NCBI GenBank assembly: GCA_016124795.1
Contig: WGNB01000036.1
Location: forward strand, 1 to 64,000
DNA from: Rhodopseudomonas sp.
GTDB lineage: Bacteria; Pseudomonadota; Alphaproteobacteria; Rhizobiales; Xanthobacteraceae
Direction of reading: 5' to 3'
DNA length: 64,000 bases
The position numbers and the translations under genes are program-made. The notes under the pieces were generated by a model, which saw nothing but the letters and a program-made list of their open reading frames with translations, searched no databases and was not told the origin of the DNA. Shown piece after piece: positions 47,122 to 58,544 of the stretch. Position 1 is the stretch's first letter. The number at the start of each line of letters is the position of its first letter.

Positions 47122-48066
47122 ATGAGCACTCATCATATTTTGCGCGCCGATGTCGGAACCGTCCATCGCGGCACGTTCGACGCATCGATCCCGCCAGTGC
47201 TGACCATCGCCTCCGGCGACACCGTCGACGTTACCACGCTATCGGGCAATGTCGCGGATCTGCCGCCGCCGGGATCGGGATTCACCGTGACGCCGGAACA
47301 CCGCCGCGTGCTGGAGCAAGTACCGGCGGGCCTCGGCGTTCACCTGATGACCGGGCCCATCGCGGTTGCCGGCGCGATGCCGGGCGACGAACTGGCGGTA
47401 GAAATCGTGGCCATACGGCTCGCCCAGGACTGGGGCTGGAACATGATCAAGCCCGGCATGGGCGCCCTTCCGGACGACTTCGACAAGCTCCGGCATATCC
47501 ACATTGCGATTGACGCCGACCGCGGCATCATCACCATGCCCTGGGGTCTCGAACTGAAGGCCGCGCCGTTTTTCGGCGTGATCGGCGTCGCACCTCCGCC
47601 GTCGGACGGGCCGCAGACATCGATCATTCCGCGCGCCTGGGGCGGCAACCTGGACAACAAGAATTTCGGCGCCGGCTCGATCCTGCATCTGCCGGTGTTC
47701 AACCCGGGCACACAATTGTCGGTCGGCGACGGTCATGCCGTCCAGGGCGACGGCGAAGTCTGCGTCACCGCCATCGAGACCGCGCTTGCCGGCACGCTGC
47801 GTATCTCGTTGATCAAGCAGTCCGGCATCGCGACGCCCTGGGCCGAAACTGCGACCCATTTCATGACCATGGGCATGAACGAAGACCTCAACAAGGCGGC
47901 CGAATTCGCGGTGCGCGAAATGATCGCGCTGATCCGTCGCCACAGCCCCTTGTCGGCCGAGGACGCCTATACGCTATGCAGCATCGCCGCCGATGTCAGC
48001 GTGACCCAGTTGGTCAACGTCAGCAAAGGCGTCCACGTCATGCTGGCCAAGGCGCTGCTGAAATGA
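47122..48066 (+). CDS. Acetamidase/formamidase family protein
   Basis: A 314-residue FmdA/AmdA-family amidohydrolase. Characteristic segments are 'GPIAVAGAMPGDELAVEIVAI', 'RAWGGNLDNKNFGAGSILHLPVFNPG' and 'LSVGDGHAVQGDGEVCVTAIET' (family G-D-x-H-x-x-Q-G-D-G-E), followed by a C-terminal helix region. It releases ammonia from short amides such as formamide or acetamide. It converges on the ABC transporter operon behind it and may supply the last step for amides made by the cyclic amidohydrolase there; that link is inference. Confidence 0.88.
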   Translation: MSTHHILRADVGTVHRGTFDASIPPVLTIASGDTVDVTTLSGNVADLPPPGSGFTVTPEHRRVLEQVPAGLGVHLMTGPIAVAGAMPGDELAVEIVAIRLAQDWGWNMIKPGMGALPDDFDKLRHIHIAIDADRGIITMPWGLELKAAPFFGVIGVAPPPSDGPQTSIIPRAWGGNLDNKNFGAGSILHLPVFNPGTQLSVGDGHAVQGDGEVCVTAIETALAGTLRISLIKQSGIATPWAETATHFMTMGMNEDLNKAAEFAVREMIALIRRHSPLSAEDAYTLCSIAADVSVTQLVNVSKGVHVMLAKALLK

Positions 48067-48088: not shown

Positions 48089-48862
48089 TCAACCCATCGC
48101 GAAATCATCCTTGCGATGGGCCCAGCCGGTAATCTTCGATTCGATCAGCGAGAAAACCGCGTAAAGCGCGACGCCAAGAATGGCGAGGATCAGCAGTCCG
48201 GCAAAAACCAGCGGCACATCGAAGTTAGACGACGCGATCATCATCACGTTGCCAATACCACGGTTCGAGGCGACGGTCTCCGAAATCACGGTTCCGACGA
48301 AAGCCAGCGTCACCGAAACTTTCAGCGAGGCGAAGAAATAAGGCATGGTGCGCGGCAGACCGACATTCCACAGAATGTCGAGCTTGCTGGCGCGCAGAGC
48401 CTTCATCACGTCTTCCAGTTCGGGTTCGGTGGTGGCCAACCCGGTCGCGACATTCACGACGATCGGGAAGATGCTCATGATCATCGCGGTCAGAATCGCC
48501 GGCACGGTGCCGGAGCCAAACCACAGCACGAAGATCGGCACCACCGCGACTTTCGGAATCGACGCAAAGCCGACCAGCAAGGGATAAGCCACGTCATAGG
48601 CGAGCCGCGACGAACCGACCAGAACGCCAAGCAACACGCCGGCGACGATGCCGAAAACGAACCCGACCAGCGTGGTATACAACGTCTGCAAGGTATGCGG
48701 CCATAGCGCCGGCATCCGCTCCACGAGCGTCACGATAATCTGGCTCGGCTTCGGCAGGACGATATCGCTGACGTTGAACAGCCAGCACAACGCCTCCCAC
48801 ATCACGAAGAAGCCGATGATCAGGACGATCGACCAGATCCGGCGGCGCAATTGCTGGTCCAT
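48089..48862 (-). CDS. ABC transporter permease (SsuC/TauC-like)
   Basis: A 257-residue BPD_transp_1 permease with six predicted spans. The EAA-type loop is 'LEDVMKALRASKLDILWNVGLPRTMPYFFASLKVS'. It is the last gene of the minus-strand operon and its ATG overlaps the ATPase stop by one base (TAATG). It works with the ATPase and the NMT1-type binding protein to import a small organic nitrogen or sulfur compound. Confidence 0.9.
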   Translation of the reverse strand: MDQQLRRRIWSIVLIIGFFVMWEALCWLFNVSDIVLPKPSQIIVTLVERMPALWPHTLQTLYTTLVGFVFGIVAGVLLGVLVGSSRLAYDVAYPLLVGFASIPKVAVVPIFVLWFGSGTVPAILTAMIMSIFPIVVNVATGLATTEPELEDVMKALRASKLDILWNVGLPRTMPYFFASLKVSVTLAFVGTVISETVASNRGIGNVMMIASSNFDVPLVFAGLLILAILGVALYAVFSLIESKITGWAHRKDDFAMG

Positions 48863-49704
48863 TACACGGTCTCCTTAACCGGGCGCGCCGAGACGATCAG
48901 TTCGCGCAAACGCTGGGTCATCGAAACGAATTCCGGCAGATAGGACATGTCGATGTTGCGCGGGCGCGGGAACGGCACTTTGGCATCGTCGATAATCTGG
49001 CCCGGGCGCGTCCGCATCACGCAGATCCGGTTGGCGAGATAACCGGCCTCCTTCAAGTCGTGGGTGACGAGAAGGACCGTCGGCTTGAGCTTCATCCAGA
49101 GCTCCTGCATGATCGCCCACAATTCCTCGCGGGTGAACTGGTCGAGCGCACCGAAAGGTTCATCCAGCATCAGCAGTTGCGGCTCGTGAATCAGCGCGCG
49201 ACACAACGAGGCGCGTTGCAGCATGCCTCCCGACAACTGCCACGGATGCTTGTCGCCGAAACTGGCAAGTCCGACTTCCTTCAGAAGCGCATCGGCACGG
49301 TCGCGAAACTCCGTCTTGCGCTTTGTCCGGTAATCCTGTCGAAACGGCGGAACGATCTTCAGCGGCAACATGACGTTATCGCGCACCGTCAGCCACGGCA
49401 GCATGGTCGGATTCTGAAACGCCATGCCGACACGGACCGGCTCGGCACCGACTTCGCGGCCGGCAACGTAGACATAGCCGTCGCTGGCCTTCAGCAGACC
49501 TGTGACAAGCTTGAGGATGGTCGATTTGCCGCAACCGGACGGGCCGACCAGCGCGACAAAATCGCCCTGGTCGATGCGCAGGGTGGTTTCGCCGAGCGCA
49601 ACGATCTGTTTCTCGCCCCGACCGTAGGTCAGCGTGACCTTCTCCAGTTCGACAAACGTCTCGTCAGAGCGCGGCGGCGATTCGGAAAGCGTGGCGGCGG
49701 TCAT
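48862..49704 (-). CDS. ABC transporter ATP-binding protein (SsuB/TauB-like)
   Basis: About 280 residues. The ATPase motifs are Walker A GPSGCGKST, Q-loop 'FQNPTMLPWLTV', signature LSGGMLQRASLCRAL, Walker B LLMLDEPFGALD and the H-loop in TVLLVTHDL. The ATG encoding MTAATL is favoured because AAAGGA lies upstream; a TTG three codons earlier is possible. It sits between the cyclic amidohydrolase gene and the permease gene. Confidence 0.9.
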   Translation of the reverse strand: MTAATLSESPPRSDETFVELEKVTLTYGRGEKQIVALGETTLRIDQGDFVALVGPSGCGKSTILKLVTGLLKASDGYVYVAGREVGAEPVRVGMAFQNPTMLPWLTVRDNVMLPLKIVPPFRQDYRTKRKTEFRDRADALLKEVGLASFGDKHPWQLSGGMLQRASLCRALIHEPQLLMLDEPFGALDQFTREELWAIMQELWMKLKPTVLLVTHDLKEAGYLANRICVMRTRPGQIIDDAKVPFPRPRNIDMSYLPEFVSMTQRLRELIVSARPVKETV

Positions 49705-49718
49705 AAGGTTCAAGTCCT

Positions 49719-51146
49719 TTACGATTGACGGCCCACGATGGCCTGCATCGAATGTTCGGCGTTGCGCACCGTCGGCTCCGGCATCGCTTGGATGGCATGC
49801 ACCGACTGGCCCCAGCCCTTGGTGCCAGCGACCAGTTTTCGATCCTTCATCACGAAGCGACCGCGCACCAAAGTGTGCACCGGCACCCCCTTCACCGGAC
49901 GACCGTCCCAGGGAGAAATTTTCGAACGAGACTGAATTTCGGCATCGCGGATTATGTGGTCGCGCGACAGGTCGACGATGGCGATGTCGGCATCCGAGCC
50001 TGGTTGCAAAGCACCCTTGCGCGGATAGAGTCCCCAGATCCGGGCCGGGTTATAGGCGCTGATACGAACATAATCGCTGATCGATAGCCGGCCAGCATTC
50101 ACCGCGGTCAGCATCAACGGCATTTGGGTCTCAACGCCGGGAAAACCGCAATCGACGGTCCAGATATCCTTGCGCGTCTTCTCTTCCGGCGTATGCGGTG
50201 CATGATCGGTGGCGATGACGTCGATCGCGCCGTCGAGCAAAGCCTGCCAGATCAGCTCCTGGTTAACCGCCTCGCGCACCGGCGGGTTGACCGCGATGAC
50301 GCCCGGGACGCGGTCATAATCGTCGGTCGACAGCATCAGATAATGCGGACAGGTCTCGCCAGTAATGTCGACGCCGCGCGCCTTGGCTTCGCGCAAAGGC
50401 CGCAACTCTTCCGCCGTCGAAATATGCAGGACGTGAATTCGCGCGCCGGTCCATTCCGCCAGCGTCGCGGCGCGGCTGACAGCTTCGACCGCGACCACAT
50501 TGGGCCGCGCGGCCAGATGCGCCCACTGATCTTTTTTACCAGCCGCCATCAGACGCTTCTGACGGCGCTCCATGATGTCATTATTTTCGGCGTGCAGCGA
50601 CACGCGCTTGCCGGTCGCCGCCGCCACCTCGAAACACTCCAGCGTCGCGCCGGTGTCGGGCGACGGGATCTTGCCGAACGTATTGCCCATATAAAGCTTG
50701 AAGCCGATGACGCCGCCTTCGATCAGATCGGGCACATGGGCAATGGTGTCATCGCCGAGCAAACCGTAAAGCCCGAAATCGACATGAGCCTTGGAGGCCG
50801 CGATGGCGTGCTTGGCGGCCAGCACCTCCTTGGTGCCGGTCGGCGGAATCGTATTGGGCATATCGAACACGCAGGTCACACCACCAAACGCGGCCGCCGC
50901 CGTGCCGCTTTCCCAGTCTTCCTTGTGCGGATAACCGGGGTCTCGGAAATGCACATGGTCGTCGATGGCGCCAGGCAAGAGATGCAGGCCGCTGGCGTCG
51001 AAGGTCTCGGTTGCCGACGGCATCGCCGACGCTGCGCCAATCGCCAGCACCTGGCCATCCTTGATCGCAATCGAAGCCTCGATGACGGAATCCGGCGAAA
51101 CGATCTTGCCGTTATGAATGACGAGGTCGGCAATAATGTCGGTCAT
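49719..51146 (-). CDS. Cyclic amidohydrolase (dihydroorotase/allantoinase/dihydropyrimidinase superfamily)
   Basis: A 475-residue binuclear-metal amidohydrolase. All ligands are readable: H64 and H66 in DDHVHFRDP, the carboxylated lysine K150 in GFKLYMG, H185 in SLHAENND, H241 in VLHIS and D314 in ATDHAPH. The 'ETCPHYL' and 'AVNPPVR' loops resemble allantoinase and class I dihydroorotase more than hydantoinase. Gene context (NMT1-type importer, SDR, nearby formamidase) argues against pyrimidine biosynthesis and for catabolism of an imported cyclic amide or ureide. Allantoinase is attractive because allantoin is made elsewhere in the window, but it is unproven. Confidence 0.85.
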   Translation of the reverse strand: MTDIIADLVIHNGKIVSPDSVIEASIAIKDGQVLAIGAASAMPSATETFDASGLHLLPGAIDDHVHFRDPGYPHKEDWESGTAAAAFGGVTCVFDMPNTIPPTGTKEVLAAKHAIAASKAHVDFGLYGLLGDDTIAHVPDLIEGGVIGFKLYMGNTFGKIPSPDTGATLECFEVAAATGKRVSLHAENNDIMERRQKRLMAAGKKDQWAHLAARPNVVAVEAVSRAATLAEWTGARIHVLHISTAEELRPLREAKARGVDITGETCPHYLMLSTDDYDRVPGVIAVNPPVREAVNQELIWQALLDGAIDVIATDHAPHTPEEKTRKDIWTVDCGFPGVETQMPLMLTAVNAGRLSISDYVRISAYNPARIWGLYPRKGALQPGSDADIAIVDLSRDHIIRDAEIQSRSKISPWDGRPVKGVPVHTLVRGRFVMKDRKLVAGTKGWGQSVHAIQAMPEPTVRNAEHSMQAIVGRQS

Positions 51147-51154
51147 AACGGTCC

Positions 51155-51949
51155 TCACAACATCGCCCAGCCGCCGTCGACCGGCAGGTCGGCGCCGGTG
51201 ATCTGGCGGGACACGTCGCTCGCCAGAAACAGGCAGGCATTGGCCACGTCGTCGTCGACGGTCACGCGGCGAAGTGCGTAATCGGCGGCGTGCCGCTCCA
51301 TCGCCTCTTCGAGCGTGATACCGAGCCGCTTGGCCATATCGGCGCAAACCTTCTCGCGGAAGCGCGGACCATCGACCATACCGGGCGCGACGCAATTGAC
51401 GTTGATGTTATACTGGCCGACCTCGAGTGCGAAACTCTTGGTGATACCGCGCAGGCCCCATTTCGAGGCCGAATAAGCCATCCGGCCGGCGCGACCGCGC
51501 ATGCCGAAAGTGCCGCCGACGTTGACGATCTTGCCGTCACGCTGCGCAATCATGGTCGGCAGCACGGCGCGCATGGCATGAAAGCAGCCGTTCATGTTGA
51601 GGGTAACGATATCGTCGAATTCTTGCGGTGTCGTCTCGACGCCGGTCTTGCCGATCGGCCCGGAGCCGCCGGCAACGTTGACCAGAATATCGATGCGATC
51701 ACCATAGGCTTCGCGGGTCTTCCGCGCCGCCACTTCGCATTGCGCCGCGTCGGTCAGATCGCAGGCCACGACAATCGCCTGCGCGCCGGACGCGCGAACT
51801 TCATTGGCGACCGGCTCAATCGCCGCGACATCGCGTCCGATCAATGCAAGCCTGGCGCCTTCCGCGGCGAAGGCCCGCGTAATAGCGGCGCCCATGCCCT
51901 TGGCCGGACCGGTGATAATCGCCACCCGGCCTTCGAGTTTCAAATCCAT
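51155..51949 (-). CDS. Short-chain dehydrogenase/reductase
   Basis: A 264-residue classical SDR. The cofactor motif is TGPAKGMG near residue 12, 'NVAGGSG' stands for the NNAG motif, and YSASK holds the catalytic Tyr and Lys. The C-terminal 'QITGADLPVDGGWAML' is standard. The start is the ATG encoding MDLKLEGR; the long upstream extension overlaps the operon hairpin and is rejected. It lies between the binding-protein and amidohydrolase genes in one operon, so it likely acts on the same catabolite. In the yeast URC pathway a malonic semialdehyde reductase is a partner enzyme, but nothing here shows that specificity. Confidence 0.88.
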   Translation of the reverse strand: MDLKLEGRVAIITGPAKGMGAAITRAFAAEGARLALIGRDVAAIEPVANEVRASGAQAIVVACDLTDAAQCEVAARKTREAYGDRIDILVNVAGGSGPIGKTGVETTPQEFDDIVTLNMNGCFHAMRAVLPTMIAQRDGKIVNVGGTFGMRGRAGRMAYSASKWGLRGITKSFALEVGQYNINVNCVAPGMVDGPRFREKVCADMAKRLGITLEEAMERHAADYALRRVTVDDDVANACLFLASDVSRQITGADLPVDGGWAML

Positions 51950-51981
51950 TGTCGCACCCGCTGAACATCGCTTGAGAAGAA

Positions 51982-52011
51982 GCCGTTCCCCCAAAGAAGC
52001 GGGGGAACGGC
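51982..52011 (-). terminator. Strong hairpin behind the binding-protein gene
   Basis: GCCGTTCCCCC and GGGGGAACGGC form a perfect 11-base stem with an 8-base loop, followed on the minus strand by TTCTTCTC. It lies just after the binding-protein stop and before the SDR gene. It could be an attenuating terminator or a 3' stabiliser giving excess binding protein over the downstream genes. Confidence 0.7.
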
Positions 52012-52031
52012 CGAGTTTGGCAGGCGGGTCG

Positions 52032-53072
52032 TTAGAACAGCTTCTTGGGCAGATCGGCGACCGGCGGCATGAACTTGTCGGTGTAAATTTCATCGACGGC
52101 CGGCGTGCGCGGCAACTTGTTAGCCTTGACCAGGATGTCGATCGACTTCTTCAGGCGCGCCTTGTCGACATTACCGAGGCCGATCTTGGCGATTTCCGGC
52201 GAGTTCATCTCGTCATGCAACGTCGCCTCGAAACGTTCCTTCTCGACGGAAGCCTTGATCAGCGGCTCGCGTTTGACGACAGCCGCAATCGCGGCGTCCG
52301 GGTCCTTCAGCGCGTCCTTCAGGCCATGATTGATCGCGGCGATCAGGCCCTTGACGACTTCCGGATGCTCTTCAGTCAGCTTTTTGGAGACAATGATGGC
52401 GTTGGAATAGAGGTCCATGCCGTAATCGCCGTACTTGATATAACGGATGTCCTTGTCCGACACGCCCATCAGCTTCGCCGAGAACCGGATGGTGTTGACG
52501 TAGCCGAACACGCCGTCGACCTGCTTGTTCATCAGCATCTGCTCGCGCAGGTTCGGCTGCATGTTGGTGACTTCGATCTTGCTGCAATCGATCTTGGCGA
52601 TATCGCAGAAGGCCGGGAACAGCTTGAGCGCGCCGTCGCCGGCGGCGCCACCGAGCTTCTTGCCAACCAGATCCTTCGGCGTCTTGATCGCGCTGTCGGC
52701 GCGCACCGCGATGGTAAAGGGCGGTTGATTGTACATGACGTAGACCGCGATCGGCGCCTCCTTCGGCTTCGTCGCGGCGAACTGGATCAGCGCATTAATG
52801 TCGCCAAATCCGACGCCATAGGTGCCGCTTGCAACCAGCGGGATGGGCGCACCGGAGCCATTGCCCTGATCCATGGTGATGTCGATGCCAGCGGCTTTGA
52901 AATAGCCGCGGTCCTGCGCGAGGAAGAACCAGCCCTGCGGACCCTGGTATTTCCAGTTCAGCACCATTTTAAGCTTCGTTTCGGCGGCGGCGGGCGCCGC
53001 CGTCATCATCGGAACGGCGATACCAATCGCGGCGGTGGCCGCGATCAGGAAGTTACGGGCGGAAAAAGTCAT
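52032..53072 (-). CDS. NMT1/THI5-like ABC transporter substrate-binding protein
   Basis: A 346-residue periplasmic receptor with a signal peptide (MTFSARNFLIAATAAIGIAVPMMTAA, cleavage near AAA-ETK). The mature start 'LKMVLNWKYQGPQGWFFLAQDRGYFKAAGIDI' is the NMT1 fold signature, shared by receptors for pyrimidines (HMP, riboflavin precursors), taurine and nitriles. A GGAGA site precedes the ATG. It is the first gene of the minus-strand operon and diverges from the LysR gene. A pyrimidine or ureide ligand would suit the surroundings. Confidence 0.9.
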   Translation of the reverse strand: MTFSARNFLIAATAAIGIAVPMMTAAPAAAETKLKMVLNWKYQGPQGWFFLAQDRGYFKAAGIDITMDQGNGSGAPIPLVASGTYGVGFGDINALIQFAATKPKEAPIAVYVMYNQPPFTIAVRADSAIKTPKDLVGKKLGGAAGDGALKLFPAFCDIAKIDCSKIEVTNMQPNLREQMLMNKQVDGVFGYVNTIRFSAKLMGVSDKDIRYIKYGDYGMDLYSNAIIVSKKLTEEHPEVVKGLIAAINHGLKDALKDPDAAIAAVVKREPLIKASVEKERFEATLHDEMNSPEIAKIGLGNVDKARLKKSIDILVKANKLPRTPAVDEIYTDKFMPPVADLPKKLF

Positions 53073-53137
53073 TGAGGGATCTCCTGTCCAGAATTCCGCC
53101 AAACCCTAACCCGCTGCGGCGTTGCTTTCTGCTGCTG

Positions 53138-53190: not shown

Positions 53191-54135
53191 ATGAAGCATT
53201 TGCGCATTCTCGACTACGTCGATGAAGTGGCCCGGTCCCGCTCGATCCGCAGGGCAGCCGAGCAACTCAATGTGACCGCCTCGGCGGTCAATCGCCGCAT
53301 TGCCGACCTTGAGGAAGAACTCGGCGCGGTGTTGTTCGACCGTCAGCCGAACGGCGTGCGCCTGACCGCGGCCGGCGAGGTTTTCGTCAATTACCTGCGC
53401 AAGCAGAATGGCGAAGCCGAACGCATGAAATCGCAGATCGAGGACCTCAAGGGCCTACGGCGTGGCACCGTGCGGCTGGCCTGCAGTCAGGCCCTGGCGC
53501 TCGACTTCCTGCCAAGGATCGTCGCCGAATTTCACAAAACCCATCCAAAAGTCGAATTCAACATCAAGGTCGTCGATCACGAATACGCCATGGCGGCGCT
53601 GGCCGCCTTTGAAGTCGACCTTGTGCTGGTGTTCCGGCCGCCGTTTCTGGCGAATTTCCATCCGATGATGACGCTGGAACAACGGCTGGTGGCGGTCATG
53701 GCCAAGACGCATCCGCTCGCGAAAGCGTCGGGCAAAGCGCGCAAGCTGCGATTGCGCGATTGCGCTGCCCACCCGGTCGCATTAGCCGAGCGCTCGATCG
53801 GCGGCCGGCAATTGCTCGAAGAAGTGATGGCCCGCACCGGACTGCGATTCAACATCATGGCGGAATCGAACTCATTCGAGATGCTGCGCGGCCTCGTCAT
53901 TCACGCCGGATTGATTTCATTTCAGATCCAGATCGGCGCACTGCCGGACGGCAACAAGCTCGGCCTGGTGGCGCGCGAGATCGACGCCCGCGACATGCCC
54001 ACCGCGAAGCTCGTGTTCGGCGGTCTGCGCGACCGCAACCTGCCGGTCGCCACCGCCGTTTTTGCCGAACTGGTTAAACGCCGTCTGGAAGCATTGGTAA
54101 ATGCCGACATAGGCAGTGGGCATCGCAAGACATAA
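53191..54135 (+). CDS. LysR-family transcriptional regulator
   Basis: A 314-residue LTTR. The N-terminal winged helix covers residues 1-60 ('LDYVDEVARSRSIRRAAEQLNVTASAVNRRIADLEEELGAVLFDR'), followed by the linker helix and a periplasmic-binding-like effector domain. The ATG encoding MKHLRILDYV was chosen over an upstream TTG that would span the operator-like repeat. It diverges from the NMT1-type ABC operon and precedes the URC-type cluster by 230 bases on the same strand. It could regulate either or both; a pyrimidine catabolite is a plausible inducer. Confidence 0.9.
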   Translation: MKHLRILDYVDEVARSRSIRRAAEQLNVTASAVNRRIADLEEELGAVLFDRQPNGVRLTAAGEVFVNYLRKQNGEAERMKSQIEDLKGLRRGTVRLACSQALALDFLPRIVAEFHKTHPKVEFNIKVVDHEYAMAALAAFEVDLVLVFRPPFLANFHPMMTLEQRLVAVMAKTHPLAKASGKARKLRLRDCAAHPVALAERSIGGRQLLEEVMARTGLRFNIMAESNSFEMLRGLVIHAGLISFQIQIGALPDGNKLGLVAREIDARDMPTAKLVFGGLRDRNLPVATAVFAELVKRRLEALVNADIGSGHRKT

Positions 54136-54365
54136 ATGACAGCCATGCCTGCCGCGCCGATTGCCGGTCGCGGAAGCGTCACTATATTTAACTTGCAAAG
54201 GGCGGGCGACGAGACCTAACCTGAGCAACGATTACAACATTCTGCACGACTGGCCCGTCCTCGGTGGCGGGCCGTATCCGTTTTGGCGGCGTGTGAAGTA
54301 ATCCGCCGAAGCCGCTTGCGATAAAGACACCTGCCGTTACAGCGCCACGAAAACAGTTGAACATC

Positions 54366-55622
54366 ATGACCCGTTCAAACCGGCCCAACCACATCCGCCT
54401 CACCTCCCATCCGGAACCAGGCGGCAAGCAGCGGTTTCCGATCCACTGGGGCGCACCGACCGCACGTGAACGCGGCCCTATCATCGGCACGGTATCGCGG
54501 CCCGGCGACCGCAATGTCATTGGCACCCATGGCGGCTCTTATGCGCTGTATCGCGCGCTCGCGGTCTCGGCTGGCGCGCTCGATCCGATCCGCCGCCCCG
54601 ACCTGACCAATACTTATCCGGCGGCCGCCATCGGCCCCTTCCCGCAATGGACCGATCCGCGCCGCATCGTTTCGCTCGATCCCTGGGGCCATCTGGTCGC
54701 CGAAAACTTCAAGGACGAAATCGCCGAGGGCGCCGATATCCGTCCCAGCATTGCCATCACCAAGGCGCGGCTCGATCTCATCGAAATGCAGGACGCCGTG
54801 CGCGCCGGCCGCTTGAAAGTCGATGGTGAACTGGTGCGTGAAAACGGCAGCATCGGCGTGACCAAGATCGCGGTCGATCCGGTCTGGTATCTGCCGGGCA
54901 TCGCCGAACGCTTCAAAACATCGGAGAACGCCCTGCGTCGCGTTCTGTTCGAGCAAACTGCCGGCATGTTCCCCGAACTGGTGACCCGGCCGGATCTTCA
55001 AGTGTTTCTACCGCCGATCGGTGGCATCACCGTCTATCTGTTCGGCGACGTCAGCAAGCTGAATAACCCGGCGACCAAGATCACCTGCCGCGTTCACGAC
55101 GAGTGCAACGGTTCCGACGTTTTCGGCTCCGATATCTGCACCTGCCGGCCTTACCTCATTCACGGTATCGAAGAATGCGCGCGCGGCGCGCAGGACGGCG
55201 GCCTGGGCATCATCGTCTATAACCGCAAGGAAGGCCGCGCGCTCGGCGAGGTTACCAAATTCCTGGTTTACAATGCCCGCAAGCGTCAGGAAGGCGGCGA
55301 TGCCGCCTCGGCCTATTTCGAGCGGACCGAATGCGTCGCCGGCGTGCAGGACGCACGTTTCCAACAATTAATGCCCGATGTCATCAACTGGCTTGGCCTG
55401 AAGCGGATCGATCGCTTCGTATCGATGAGCGACATGAAATACAACGCCATGGTCGAACAGGGCGTCGAGATCGTCGAACGAATCCCGATTCCCGACGAAT
55501 TGGTGCCGGCCGACGCCCATGTCGAAATCGCCGCCAAGAAAGCCGCCGGTTACTATTCGCCGGACGCGCCCAAGCCACAGGACCTGACCGGAACCGTCGG
55601 CCGCGACCTCAACAAATACTAA
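54366..55622 (+). CDS. GTP cyclohydrolase II-like protein of the URC1 type (uracil catabolism)
   Basis: A 418-residue protein. The C-terminal half is the RibA fold: zinc ligands C247, C258 and C260 with the exact C-x10-C-x-C spacing of E. coli RibA, then 'YNRKEGRALGE' for RibA 'YHRQEGRNIGL'. The base-recognition segment 'TNNP' of true RibA reads 'MSDMKY', and about 200 extra N-terminal residues are present. These features fit the URC1 family, first defined in the yeast Lachancea kluyveri, where it is needed to open the uracil ring. A DUF1688 (URC4) gene and a UPRT gene follow, which makes this assignment strong. It is unlikely to make riboflavin. Confidence 0.9.
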   Translation: MTRSNRPNHIRLTSHPEPGGKQRFPIHWGAPTARERGPIIGTVSRPGDRNVIGTHGGSYALYRALAVSAGALDPIRRPDLTNTYPAAAIGPFPQWTDPRRIVSLDPWGHLVAENFKDEIAEGADIRPSIAITKARLDLIEMQDAVRAGRLKVDGELVRENGSIGVTKIAVDPVWYLPGIAERFKTSENALRRVLFEQTAGMFPELVTRPDLQVFLPPIGGITVYLFGDVSKLNNPATKITCRVHDECNGSDVFGSDICTCRPYLIHGIEECARGAQDGGLGIIVYNRKEGRALGEVTKFLVYNARKRQEGGDAASAYFERTECVAGVQDARFQQLMPDVINWLGLKRIDRFVSMSDMKYNAMVEQGVEIVERIPIPDELVPADAHVEIAAKKAAGYYSPDAPKPQDLTGTVGRDLNKY

Positions 55623-55633
55623 GAACGAAACAT

Positions 55634-55658
55634 CGGCGCCGGGATAGTCCCGGCGCCG
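55634..55658 (+). terminator. Perfect hairpin between the URC1- and URC4-type genes
   Basis: CGGCGCCGGGA-TAG-TCCCGGCGCCG is an 11-base perfect stem with a 3-base loop, followed after about ten bases by CCTTTT. It starts 12 bases after the URC1-type stop. It could attenuate downstream expression or protect the upstream message. Confidence 0.7.
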
Positions 55659-55686
55659 CGAACGATTCCTTTTGGCCTGCCGATTG

Positions 55687-56937
55687 ATGGCGCTCCTGAT
55701 GAATTCCGAAACGGCCGCCGCAATGTCTCTCCTCAGCGCCCAAGCCGTTCGCGCGCGCGCGCAAACGATGCTGACGCTTGGGCTTGAAGACCGGCTGCCG
55801 AATTTCAGGGTCGATCTGTCTCAACTCGACGCAATCGCCGAACGCGTACTGGCGGTGACGCGCCAGGCTTATCCCTCGCTCGACATCCCGTTCCATTCCC
55901 GCTGGCGACACTTCGTCGTCAACGGCACGGATCGATTTGCCGTTATTGCCAACCAGGCACCATGGCGCGACGCCGCGGCAAGGGCGCGCGCCGAATTCGA
56001 TCTCGCCATCGTCAGCGTCTTTCTCGATGCCGGCGCCGGTGCGCAATGGCGCTATAACGATCCGGTCAGCGGCCAGGCCATCGGCCGCTCCGAAGGTCTG
56101 GCGCTCGCCAGCCTCGACATGTTCGCGGCCGGCGCATTTTCAGCCGACCCTCAGAACCCGTTGCGAGTCGATGCCACCGTACTGGCCGCGCTAACCGCGG
56201 ACCAACTGGCCAAGGGCTTTCAGGTCACCGCCGATAATCCGTTGGTCGGTCTCGACGGTCGCGCGGCATTGCTGCGCAGGCTTGGCGCTTTGATGCACGA
56301 AAAGCCGGCCGTCTTTGCCGGCAGCGATAGCGCCCGACCGGGCGGGCTGTTCGATCACATGACAGCACACAGCGGCAACACGACAACCATTGCCGCGCCA
56401 CATATTCTTGCCACGCTGCTCGTCGAACTCGGGCCGATCTGGCCGTCCCGCCTCACGCTCGGCGGCGTCCCATTGGGCGATTGCTGGCGGCACAGCTCGA
56501 TCAGGACCGCCGACGCGACAAACGGTCTCGTCCCGTTACACAAATTATCGCAGTGGTTGTCTTATTCATTGATCGAGCCGCTGCAACGCGCCGGCCTGAC
56601 CGTGTCCGACATCGATGGACTCACCGGCCTCGCCGAATATCGCAACGGCGGCCTCTTCGTCGATGGCGGGGTCCTCAAGCTTCGCGACGTAGCGCAATTG
56701 ACGCAAGCGCACGATGCCGGCTCGGAACTGGTGGTCGAATGGCGCGCTCTAACGGTTGCATTGCTCGACAAACTGGCAGCGACCATTCGCGAGCGTTTGA
56801 ACATGGACGCGGTCAGTCTGCCGCTGGCGAAAATTCTCGAAGGCGGCACCTGGGCAACCGGGCGCGTACTGGCGCGCGAACGGCGGCCGGACAGTTCGCC
56901 GCCGATTACGGTCATCAGCGACGGCACGGTATTTTAG
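55687..56937 (+). CDS. DUF1688 protein of the URC4 type (uracil catabolism)
   Basis: About 416 residues of the DUF1688/URC4 family. Conserved stretches include '[40 protein letters not shown]', '[24 protein letters not shown]', 'RPGGLFDHM', '[33 protein letters not shown]' and '[14 protein letters not shown]'. The domain is found almost only in URC clusters of fungi and bacteria and its exact chemistry is unsettled; yeast genetics places it in uracil ring degradation. Several ATGs (55687, 55699, 55723) are possible starts and none has a strong ribosome-binding site. The UPRT gene follows after an AGGAG that overlaps this gene's stop. Confidence 0.9.
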
Positions 56938-56948
56938 GAGCAAGACAT

Positions 56949-57584
56949 ATGGCCATCGAGGGCGTCACCGTCGTCAATCATCCGCTGGTGCAGCACAAGC
57001 TGACCTTGATCCGCGACAAAAGTCTGTCGACCAAGTCATTTCGCGAACTGCTGAGCGAAATCGGCATGTTGCTGTGTTACGAAGTGACGCGCGACCTGCC
57101 GCTCGAGATGACCGAAATCGAAACGCCGATGGCACGGATGAAGTCGCCGAAGCTCGCCGGCAAAAAACTGGTATTCGCGCCGATCCTGCGCGCCGGTCTG
57201 ACCTTCGCCCAAGGCATGCTCGATCTCGTGCCTGTGGCCCGCGTCGCGCATATCGGCATGTATCGCGAACCGGAAACATTTTCGGCGGTCGAATATTTCC
57301 TGAAGACGCCATCCGATATCGCCGAACGACTGGTCATCGTTATCGTGCCGGTACTGGCGACCGCGAATACGGCAGTCGCCGCCGTCGATCGGCTGAAAGA
57401 ACGCGGCGCCAAGGATGTCCGGCTGGTCTGCATGGTCAGTGCGCCGGAAGGCATCGAACGGATGCGCGGCATTCATCCCGACGTTCACATCTGGACGGCG
57501 GCGATCGACGAACGGCTCAACGAACAAGGCTTCATCATTCCCGGGCTCGGCGACGCCGGCGACCGCGCCTACGGCACCAAATAA
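56949..57584 (+). CDS. upp: Uracil phosphoribosyltransferase with altered PRPP loop
   Basis: A 211-residue UPRT. Family segments are intact: '[30 protein letters not shown]', 'PILRAGL' and the uracil-binding loop '[16 protein letters not shown]'. The PRPP-binding loop, DPMLATGGS in E. coli, reads VPVLATANT: Asp becomes Val133 and Gly-Gly becomes Ala139-Asn140. In the URC pathway UPRT converts uracil to UMP, the entry compound, so this copy is probably dedicated to catabolism rather than salvage. Start: ATG with AGGAG eight bases upstream, after the URC4-type gene. Catalytic competence of the altered loop is uncertain. Confidence 0.92.
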
Positions 57585-57662: not shown

Positions 57663-58544
57663 ATGACCGCCAAGCTGATCGATGGCAACGCGATAGCCCG
57701 CAAAGTCCGCGAGGAGATTCGTGTCCGCGTTGAAGTGCTGAAGCAAAAACATGGCGTCGCGCCCGGTCTCGCCGTGATCCTGATCGGCGAGGACCCGGCG
57801 TCCAAGGTTTACGTCCGCAACAAGATCAGAGCCTGCGCCGAGGTCGGCATTGAATCGCAGGTGGTCCGTTTCCCCACCACCGTCTCCGAACAGGAAGTCC
57901 TCGATTGCATCGAGCGTCTCAACAAGGACGCAGCAATCAACGGCATCCTCGTGCAGTTGCCGATCCCGCCGACGATCTCGATCAGGGCGGTGCTCGAAAC
58001 CATCTCGGTGGACAAGGACGTCGACGGTTTCCATCTCTACAATGTCGGCGGCTTGATCGCCGGAGATTCGGTATTCCCACCCTGTACGCCTTATGGCGTG
58101 CAAAAGATTCTCGAATACGAAGGCATTCCGCTGGAAGGGCGCAACGTCACCGTGGTCGGCGCCAGCAACATTGTCGGCAAACCGATGGCGCTGATGCTGA
58201 TGCAGAGCGAAGCAACGGTCGCCATCTGCCATGCCAAGACACGCGATCTCGCGCAATACACGATCCTGGCCGACATCCTCGTCGTCGCCGCCGGCAAGCC
58301 CAACCTGATTTTGCCGCAAATGGTCCGGACCGGCGCCGTCGTCATCGACGTCGGCATCAACCGTCTGCCCGACGGCCGCCTTGTCGGCGATGTCGATTTC
58401 GAAGGGGTGCGTCAAAAGGCGTCGCACATCACGCCGGTGCCGGGCGGCGTCGGACCGATGACGGTGACGATGCTTCTCTACAACACGGTGGCGTCTGCCG
58501 AACGCGAAGCCAACCATGCAGCGGCAGGCCAGATCGCGCGATAA
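57663..58544 (+). CDS. folD: Bifunctional methylenetetrahydrofolate dehydrogenase / methenyltetrahydrofolate cyclohydrolase
   Basis: A 293-residue FolD. Typical segments are 'LAVILIGEDPASKVYVRNK' with the catalytic Lys in the Y-V-x-x-K motif, 'GILVQLPIP', 'DVDGFHLYNVGGL', 'PCTPYGVQKIL', the NADP loop 'VTVVGASNIVGKPMALML', and 'ITPVPGGVGPMTV'. It interconverts 5,10-methylene- and 10-formyl-THF in the cytosol. It starts 78 bases after upp across a weak hairpin, so it may or may not be in the same transcript. Its C-terminus meets a tRNA gene on the other strand. Confidence 0.96.
   Translation: MTAKLIDGNAIARKVREEIRVRVEVLKQKHGVAPGLAVILIGEDPASKVYVRNKIRACAEVGIESQVVRFPTTVSEQEVLDCIERLNKDAAINGILVQLPIPPTISIRAVLETISVDKDVDGFHLYNVGGLIAGDSVFPPCTPYGVQKILEYEGIPLEGRNVTVVGASNIVGKPMALMLMQSEATVAICHAKTRDLAQYTILADILVVAAGKPNLILPQMVRTGAVVIDVGINRLPDGRLVGDVDFEGVRQKASHITPVPGGVGPMTVTMLLYNTVASAEREANHAAAGQIAR

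Follow-up and report, generated by a model that had tools for sequence, protein, structure and literature searches.

The gene set at the locus

The stretch of DNA analysed here, hereafter the window, spans 64,000 nucleotides of a Rhodopseudomonas sp. contig (WGNB01000036.1) and carries what is probably an operon for uracil catabolism of the URC type. Its assembly comprises 5.14 Mb in 76 contigs and is 95% complete. As the original prediction had it, a LysR-type regulator, a URC1-type cyclohydrolase, a DUF1688 protein and a uracil phosphoribosyltransferase (UPRT) follow one another on the + strand at 53191-57584; all four genes are intact, and Pfam and NCBIfam assign their domains. The regulator (53191..54135) matches PF00126 (1.8e-20) and PF03466 (2.8e-33), and the cyclohydrolase (54366..55622), probably acting on uridine triphosphate (UTP), matches PF12471 (272.7 bits), PF00925 (49.6 bits) and NF005536 (751.7 bits). 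The open reading frame (ORF) of DUF1688/URC4 (urg3), a predicted N-ribosyl hydrolase by fold comparison, runs from 55672 to its stop at 56937, with a PF07958 match at 55729-56934 (498.6 bits; 1.7e-149). As listed, the UPRT ORF starts at 56481, and homology places the start at 56949, 11 bases past the DUF1688 stop, giving a gene at 56949..57584. It scores 233.8 bits against PF14681 and 255.7 against TIGR01091 (cut-off 208.35), yet lacks the aspartate of its phosphoribosyl pyrophosphate (PRPP) loop.

Three papers (PMC3869809, PMC7530994, PMC2174524) place the same three protein families in Lachancea kluyveri URC1, URC4 and URC6 and in the clustered urg1-urg2-urg3 genes of Schizosaccharomyces pombe. 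The window trio shares these families and differs from the yeast systems in several respects: a LysR protein in this bacterial operon stands in place of a zinc-finger regulator, the genome has a urease where yeast has the URC3/URC5 route for urea, and the UPRT has lost its loop aspartate.

Of 297 genomes surveyed in the order, 80 have DUF1688, as do 26 of 398 in a phylum sample that overlaps the order set and none of 14 control genomes. The original prediction had suggested a search of DUF1688 neighbours, and among the best 80 of at least 589 confirmed loci (the named loci below, some with short flanks) it places URC1 at 76 and UPRT at 78, a co-occurrence far beyond chance. Seventeen further loci, some from genomes already in the order survey, have URC1 in every case and UPRT in 16. 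Gene order within the trio is the same in most loci compared, from Hyphomicrobiales and Caulobacter/Brevundimonas to Azospirillum, Cupriavidus and Gordonia, which bears out the assignment of the three genes to the URC set. By DUF1688, the closest named relatives are metagenome-assembled genomes labelled 'Rhizobium sp. Q54' (79% identity), uncultured Rhizobiales (78%) and Pseudolabrys (76%). The family also appears in 13 plasmid records, four of which were inspected. On the Azospirillum, Pseudoroseomonas and Gordonia plasmids, NCBI names the three genes 'GTP cyclohydrolase II', 'URC4/urg3 family protein' and upp. The Cupriavidus metallidurans record lacks a gene table at the locus, where tblastn detected all three genes. 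Since the trio is annotated as such on plasmids, the cluster is of a known kind, and in gene content it is an ordinary member of that kind.

URC1, DUF1688 and the proposed route

The URC1-type protein joins a GTP_CH_N domain to a GTP cyclohydrolase II domain, the latter carrying three cysteines. The RibA-type zinc spacing read in the original prediction is borne out, as all three zinc-type cysteines are present in the alignment (DEC..ICTC; DECNGSDVFGSDICTC); the changed base-recognition motif of the same prediction is a putative feature. PDB entries 7ej3 and 7eev match the protein nearly end to end at about 599 bits, while 2bz0 reaches only 43.7 bits. These two entries are, we take it, the structures tied to the UTP cyclohydrolase of Zhang et al. 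(ACS Catal 2021). By analogy, the window enzyme is probably a UTP cyclohydrolase. A 2021 UTP cyclohydrolase paper is also cited for URC in PMC12507026 (its reference 14). The earlier view that URC is poorly characterised in bacteria does not hold for URC1, which is no blank given two solved structures that match so closely.

Structurally, DUF1688 resembles a known family of nucleotide glycosidases. Its model (mean pLDDT confidence 93.2) aligns with DUF2419 in Foldseek and VIA-align and shows a Qng1 glycosylase-like fold over the whole chain, which suggests an enzyme class, N-ribosyl hydrolase. DUF1688 is a sister family of DUF2419/Qng1 (Q_salvage) and not a member, with 18.8 bits against a Q_salvage cut-off of 25; that Pfam model gave no match in 249 phylum genomes or the 14 controls, a result that says nothing on absence. 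Qng1 is a queuosine-5'-monophosphate nucleosidase (PDB 7u07, 7u91, 7ulc, 7ugk, 7uk3). Two methods align K272 and E303 of DUF1688 (residues 291 and 322 when numbered from the ORF start at 55672) with K199 and D231 of Qng1, with weak scores; the roles of D231, as catalytic acid, and of K199 are inferred from the titles of mutant PDB entries. The substrates differ as well, a deazaguanine nucleotide for Qng1 and presumably ribosylurea for DUF1688. Among full-length queries, only profile A1 brought up DUF2419, at E 0.11; profile A2 and the single DUF1688 sequence found nothing in the same kind of search. A C-terminal DUF1688 profile run against PDB gave ankyrin-type matches, which were dismissed as noise. 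In the literature searched, which leaves most subscription papers outside and so may miss a printed link, no text joins DUF1688/URC4 with DUF2419/Qng1, and the mechanism proposed here is specific, testable and not found in that literature. The original prediction called the chemistry of DUF1688 unsettled. This stands only in part, since the fold suggests an enzyme class and the yeast urc4 work (PMC7530994) assigns URC4 the step from ribosylurea to urea.

Computation establishes gene identity, operon conservation, the DUF1688 fold, the residue register (weak by sequence) and the aspartate loss of the UPRT; what we infer beyond these is every chemical step, the phosphate that ribosylurea would carry, and both regulation and import. 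With fairly good confidence, the locus is a URC-type uracil catabolism operon with a UPRT, URC1, DUF1688 route. In this route the UPRT would convert uracil to uridine monophosphate (UMP), which cellular kinases would raise to UTP. The URC1-type enzyme, like a UTP cyclohydrolase, would then open the uracil ring of the nucleotide, releasing a three-carbon (C3) fragment and N-ribosylurea, possibly as the 5'-phosphate. DUF1688 would cut the N-ribosyl bond to give urea and ribose (5-phosphate), as Qng1 does on queuosine-5'-monophosphate, with E303 as the putative catalytic acid and K272 beside it. Finally, the urease present in the genome would turn urea into ammonia.

As for other uracil routes in this 95% complete assembly, RutA stays under its cut-off (best 140.8 bits against 498.3), as does NF006183 (133.6 against 335), which we take to be the dihydropyrimidine dehydrogenase PreA/PydA. 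A dihydropyrimidinase encoded on a different contig does pass its cut-off, and the four neighbouring ORFs scanned there include no dehydrogenase of the reductive pathway. With RutA and NF006183 both under their cut-offs, the proposed growth test on uracil after deletion of the cluster would be a fair one.

Several observations weigh against the proposed route. A UPRT without the loop aspartate makes the first step doubtful in the window strain, and within the operon we identified no gene that would deal with the C3 fragment. Four loci from Enterovirga and a related strain (L090, L095, L098, L099; L numbers denote the DUF1688/UPRT loci compared, G numbers the genomes searched) carry DUF1688 with intact K/E among scanned neighbours that look unrelated, and lack URC1 in the examined flanks, no whole-genome URC1 search having been made. 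A TctC-type receptor, the leading non-trio neighbour (7 of 80 loci), shows no clear tie to uracil. The K/E register is weak by sequence alone (domain i-Evalues 59-76), with hhalign giving E 2.6e-4 and 42% probability for A1 and 1.4e-3 and 17.5% for A2, against E 0.014 and 3% for a hand-scrambled control fragment. Lastly, the acid is Glu in DUF1688 where Qng1 has Asp.

The regulator and the flanking genes

The LysR protein probably senses a pathway metabolite. Between it and URC1, at 54251-54273, lies a GC-rich hairpin (GGCCCG/CGGGCC) followed by T's, which is kept in four relatives and is probably the LysR terminator; the surrounding sequence folds no better than shuffles (z 0.52). Rfam gave no match. 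After the UPRT comes a tetrahydrofolate dehydrogenase/cyclohydrolase gene of folD type, at 57663.

Divergently from the operon, on the - strand, runs a block that comprises an NMT1/THI5-like substrate-binding protein of an ATP-binding cassette (ABC) importer (52032..53102; PF09084, 5.1e-38), a short-chain dehydrogenase/reductase (SDR) family oxidoreductase (51155..52093; PF00106, 1.5e-51), a cyclic amidohydrolase of allantoinase/dihydroorotase-like type (49719..51395; PF01979; the 5' end of the ORF is probably overlong relative to the gene), the importer ATPase (48862..49713; PF00005, 1.3e-30) and its permease (48089..48862; PF00528, 1.2e-26). Past the importer, at 47122-48066, stands an acetamidase/formamidase (PF03069), which L033 and L035 also have.

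Whether this block belongs to the uracil pathway is an evenly balanced question, for it may equally be a separate system for another cyclic ureide of the allantoin or hydantoin type that meets URC merely at urea. The amidohydrolase passes the allantoinase model TIGR03178 (370 against 357.85) and pyrC_multi, TIGR00857 (335.4 against 279.05), and misses dihydropyrimidinase, TIGR02033 (337.9 against 393.25). Among the 80 named loci, the whole block with LysR accompanies the trio only in L033, L035, L036 and L037, the four nearest relatives with enough flank, some flanks elsewhere being short. Against a separate system, these four keep the entire divergent arrangement at 68-89% identity (LysR, at the same place, 75-85%; SDR 81-87%), and related ABC genes also lie close to the trio in L086 and L089. 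The block described in the original prediction is real (48089-53102), and its supposed role in feeding uracil to the operon remains a guess, given its presence in 4 of 80 loci and the allantoinase cut-off passed.

A neighbour census within 7 kb in the 80 loci, with one member annotated per cluster and groups defined by genus or title, shows which other genes recur. The non-trio clusters that span most groups are the TctC-type receptor, a phosphopentomutase (13 loci, 6 groups) and an ABC ATPase (11 loci, 5 groups), with thymidine phosphorylase lower (9 loci, 3 groups). Behind the trio of Azospirillum lie a BMP-type importer and an amidohydrolase. Neighbours other than TctC are compatible with pyrimidine nucleoside use.

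The UPRT loop and competing readings

Beyond passing the family cut-offs, the UPRT of the window keeps the C-terminal GLGDAGD and most near-invariant columns; it differs in the PRPP loop, which reads VPVLATANT, with V133 at the aspartate position. In E. coli Upp the loop is presumably DPMLATGGS. The aspartate is the only acid of the UPRT ribose loop.

A census of 135 distinct rows with at least 180 aligned residues, in a sample that leans towards Bradyrhizobium, shows where this residue is lost. The aspartate is present in 29 of 29 UPRTs whose midpoints lie farther than 1.7 kb from DUF1688, some of them (such as L096 and L125) still near a URC1 gene, and in 55 of 106 within that distance, where the replacements are threonine (28), serine (12), valine (6), alanine (3), histidine (1) and asparagine (1). 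On a quick tree thinned to 77 rows the state changes three times, once in a 17-row clade and once each in L082 and L102, the latter two sitting on long, unsure branches. L193 has a further N at the site, in a loop identical to that of L102. Sisters of the clade retain D (L037, L039, L044, L087, and L150 of G236), which shows that the family as a whole has not lost it; the UPRTs of Azospirillum, Pseudoroseomonas, Gordonia and Cupriavidus have D as well. D-bearing rows share 65 columns that are at least 97% constant. All 17 clade rows have lost two of these, D133 and M135; Y195 is gone from 14 rows, A164 from 8 and E167 from 5, and the other 60 columns are kept in at least 15. In Bradyrhizobium ivorense and B. 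uaiense (L045, L085), a canonical-Asp UPRT lies upstream on the opposite strand in addition to the D-less copy in the trio. Two ideas were rejected. One took a change from ATGGS to ATANS as the mark of URC-linked UPRTs, but this change is frequent in the order also away from DUF1688 (L130, L136, L152, L154). The other took Y195F as proof in the form of a strict companion of the aspartate loss; it occurs in 14 of the 17 clade rows and in the two odd rows, whereas L193 and L183 do not show it.

These patterns lend some weight to a reading in which free uracil is not the starting point of the operon: the UPRT would no longer depend on PRPP, serving as a sensor, a scaffold or otherwise, and URC1 and DUF1688 would recycle UTP/UMP from RNA turnover. 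Of eight genomes in the window's family searched for UPRTs (G000, G035, G143, G171, G194, G216, G253, G270), all with a D-less copy, five have a second, canonical full-length enzyme elsewhere, as this reading would allow; a ninth D-less genome, G641 (L179), lies outside the count. We nevertheless consider it unlikely. The ratio of nonsynonymous to synonymous substitution rates (dN/dS) between the window UPRT and four clade members is 0.07-0.15, which points to purifying selection on D-less UPRTs, as does the retention of the 60 columns; against the D-bearing L037 and L044 it is 0.29 and 0.23. Moreover, G000, G171 and G194 have only a D-less full-length UPRT, and no genome of 12 passes the TIGR00235 uridine kinase cut-off, which 7 of 14 controls pass; if uracil is used there, the D-less enzyme must work. 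The aspartate loss is a real variant kept under selection, and either the UPRT functions without this residue or the pathway in these strains starts other than from free uracil. Slightly less likely again is the idea that the URC-linked UPRT of this lineage is no longer an ordinary PRPP enzyme and has another uracil role, for example as a sensor or by taking ribose-5-phosphate from the ribosylurea-5-phosphate on which DUF1688 would act.

It is improbable that DUF1688 combines a glycosylase fold with some other activity, on a different nucleoside or in non-glycosidic ureide hydrolysis. Fold kinship leaves the substrate unfixed, and the family diversifies: divergent copies beside a UPRT with no URC1 nearby (L204-L208, L212) do not have the lysine and show Asp at the Glu position, and from their sequences may form a subfamily with another substrate. 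Set against this, the yeast urc4 work (PMC7530994) indicates ribosylurea, and all 125 distinct DUF1688 loci that also have URC1 keep K/E intact. Very improbable is a role of the URC1-like gene as the organism's GTP cyclohydrolase II for riboflavin, with the cluster only loosely linked to uracil: NF005536 and, by their depositors, 7ej3/7eev bear that name, and the one further PF00925 match in the assembly (L163, contig C16) belongs to a RibB fusion with no zinc cysteines in its cyclohydrolase half, but URC1 prefers 7ej3/7eev to 2bz0, falls far under the TIGR00505 (RibA) cut-off (47.9 bits against 205.85) and accompanies DUF1688 in 76 of the 80 named loci. No zinc-type enzyme for riboflavin was found in this assembly, from which, at 95% completeness, a zinc-type RibA may simply be missing.

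The proposed UPRT, URC1, DUF1688 route concerns one of the least understood of known uracil degradation pathways. Once DUF1688 is paired with a known nucleotide glycosidase and two residues are singled out, a step of unknown function can be put to a one-protein assay. A UPRT that drew on ribosylurea-5-phosphate would spare PRPP, the ribose carrier being recycled within the pathway. A selected UPRT without its loop aspartate, in some genomes with no other full-length UPRT and no TIGR00235 uridine kinase over its cut-off, is either a natural experiment on what type I phosphoribosyltransferases need or the mark of a new activity.

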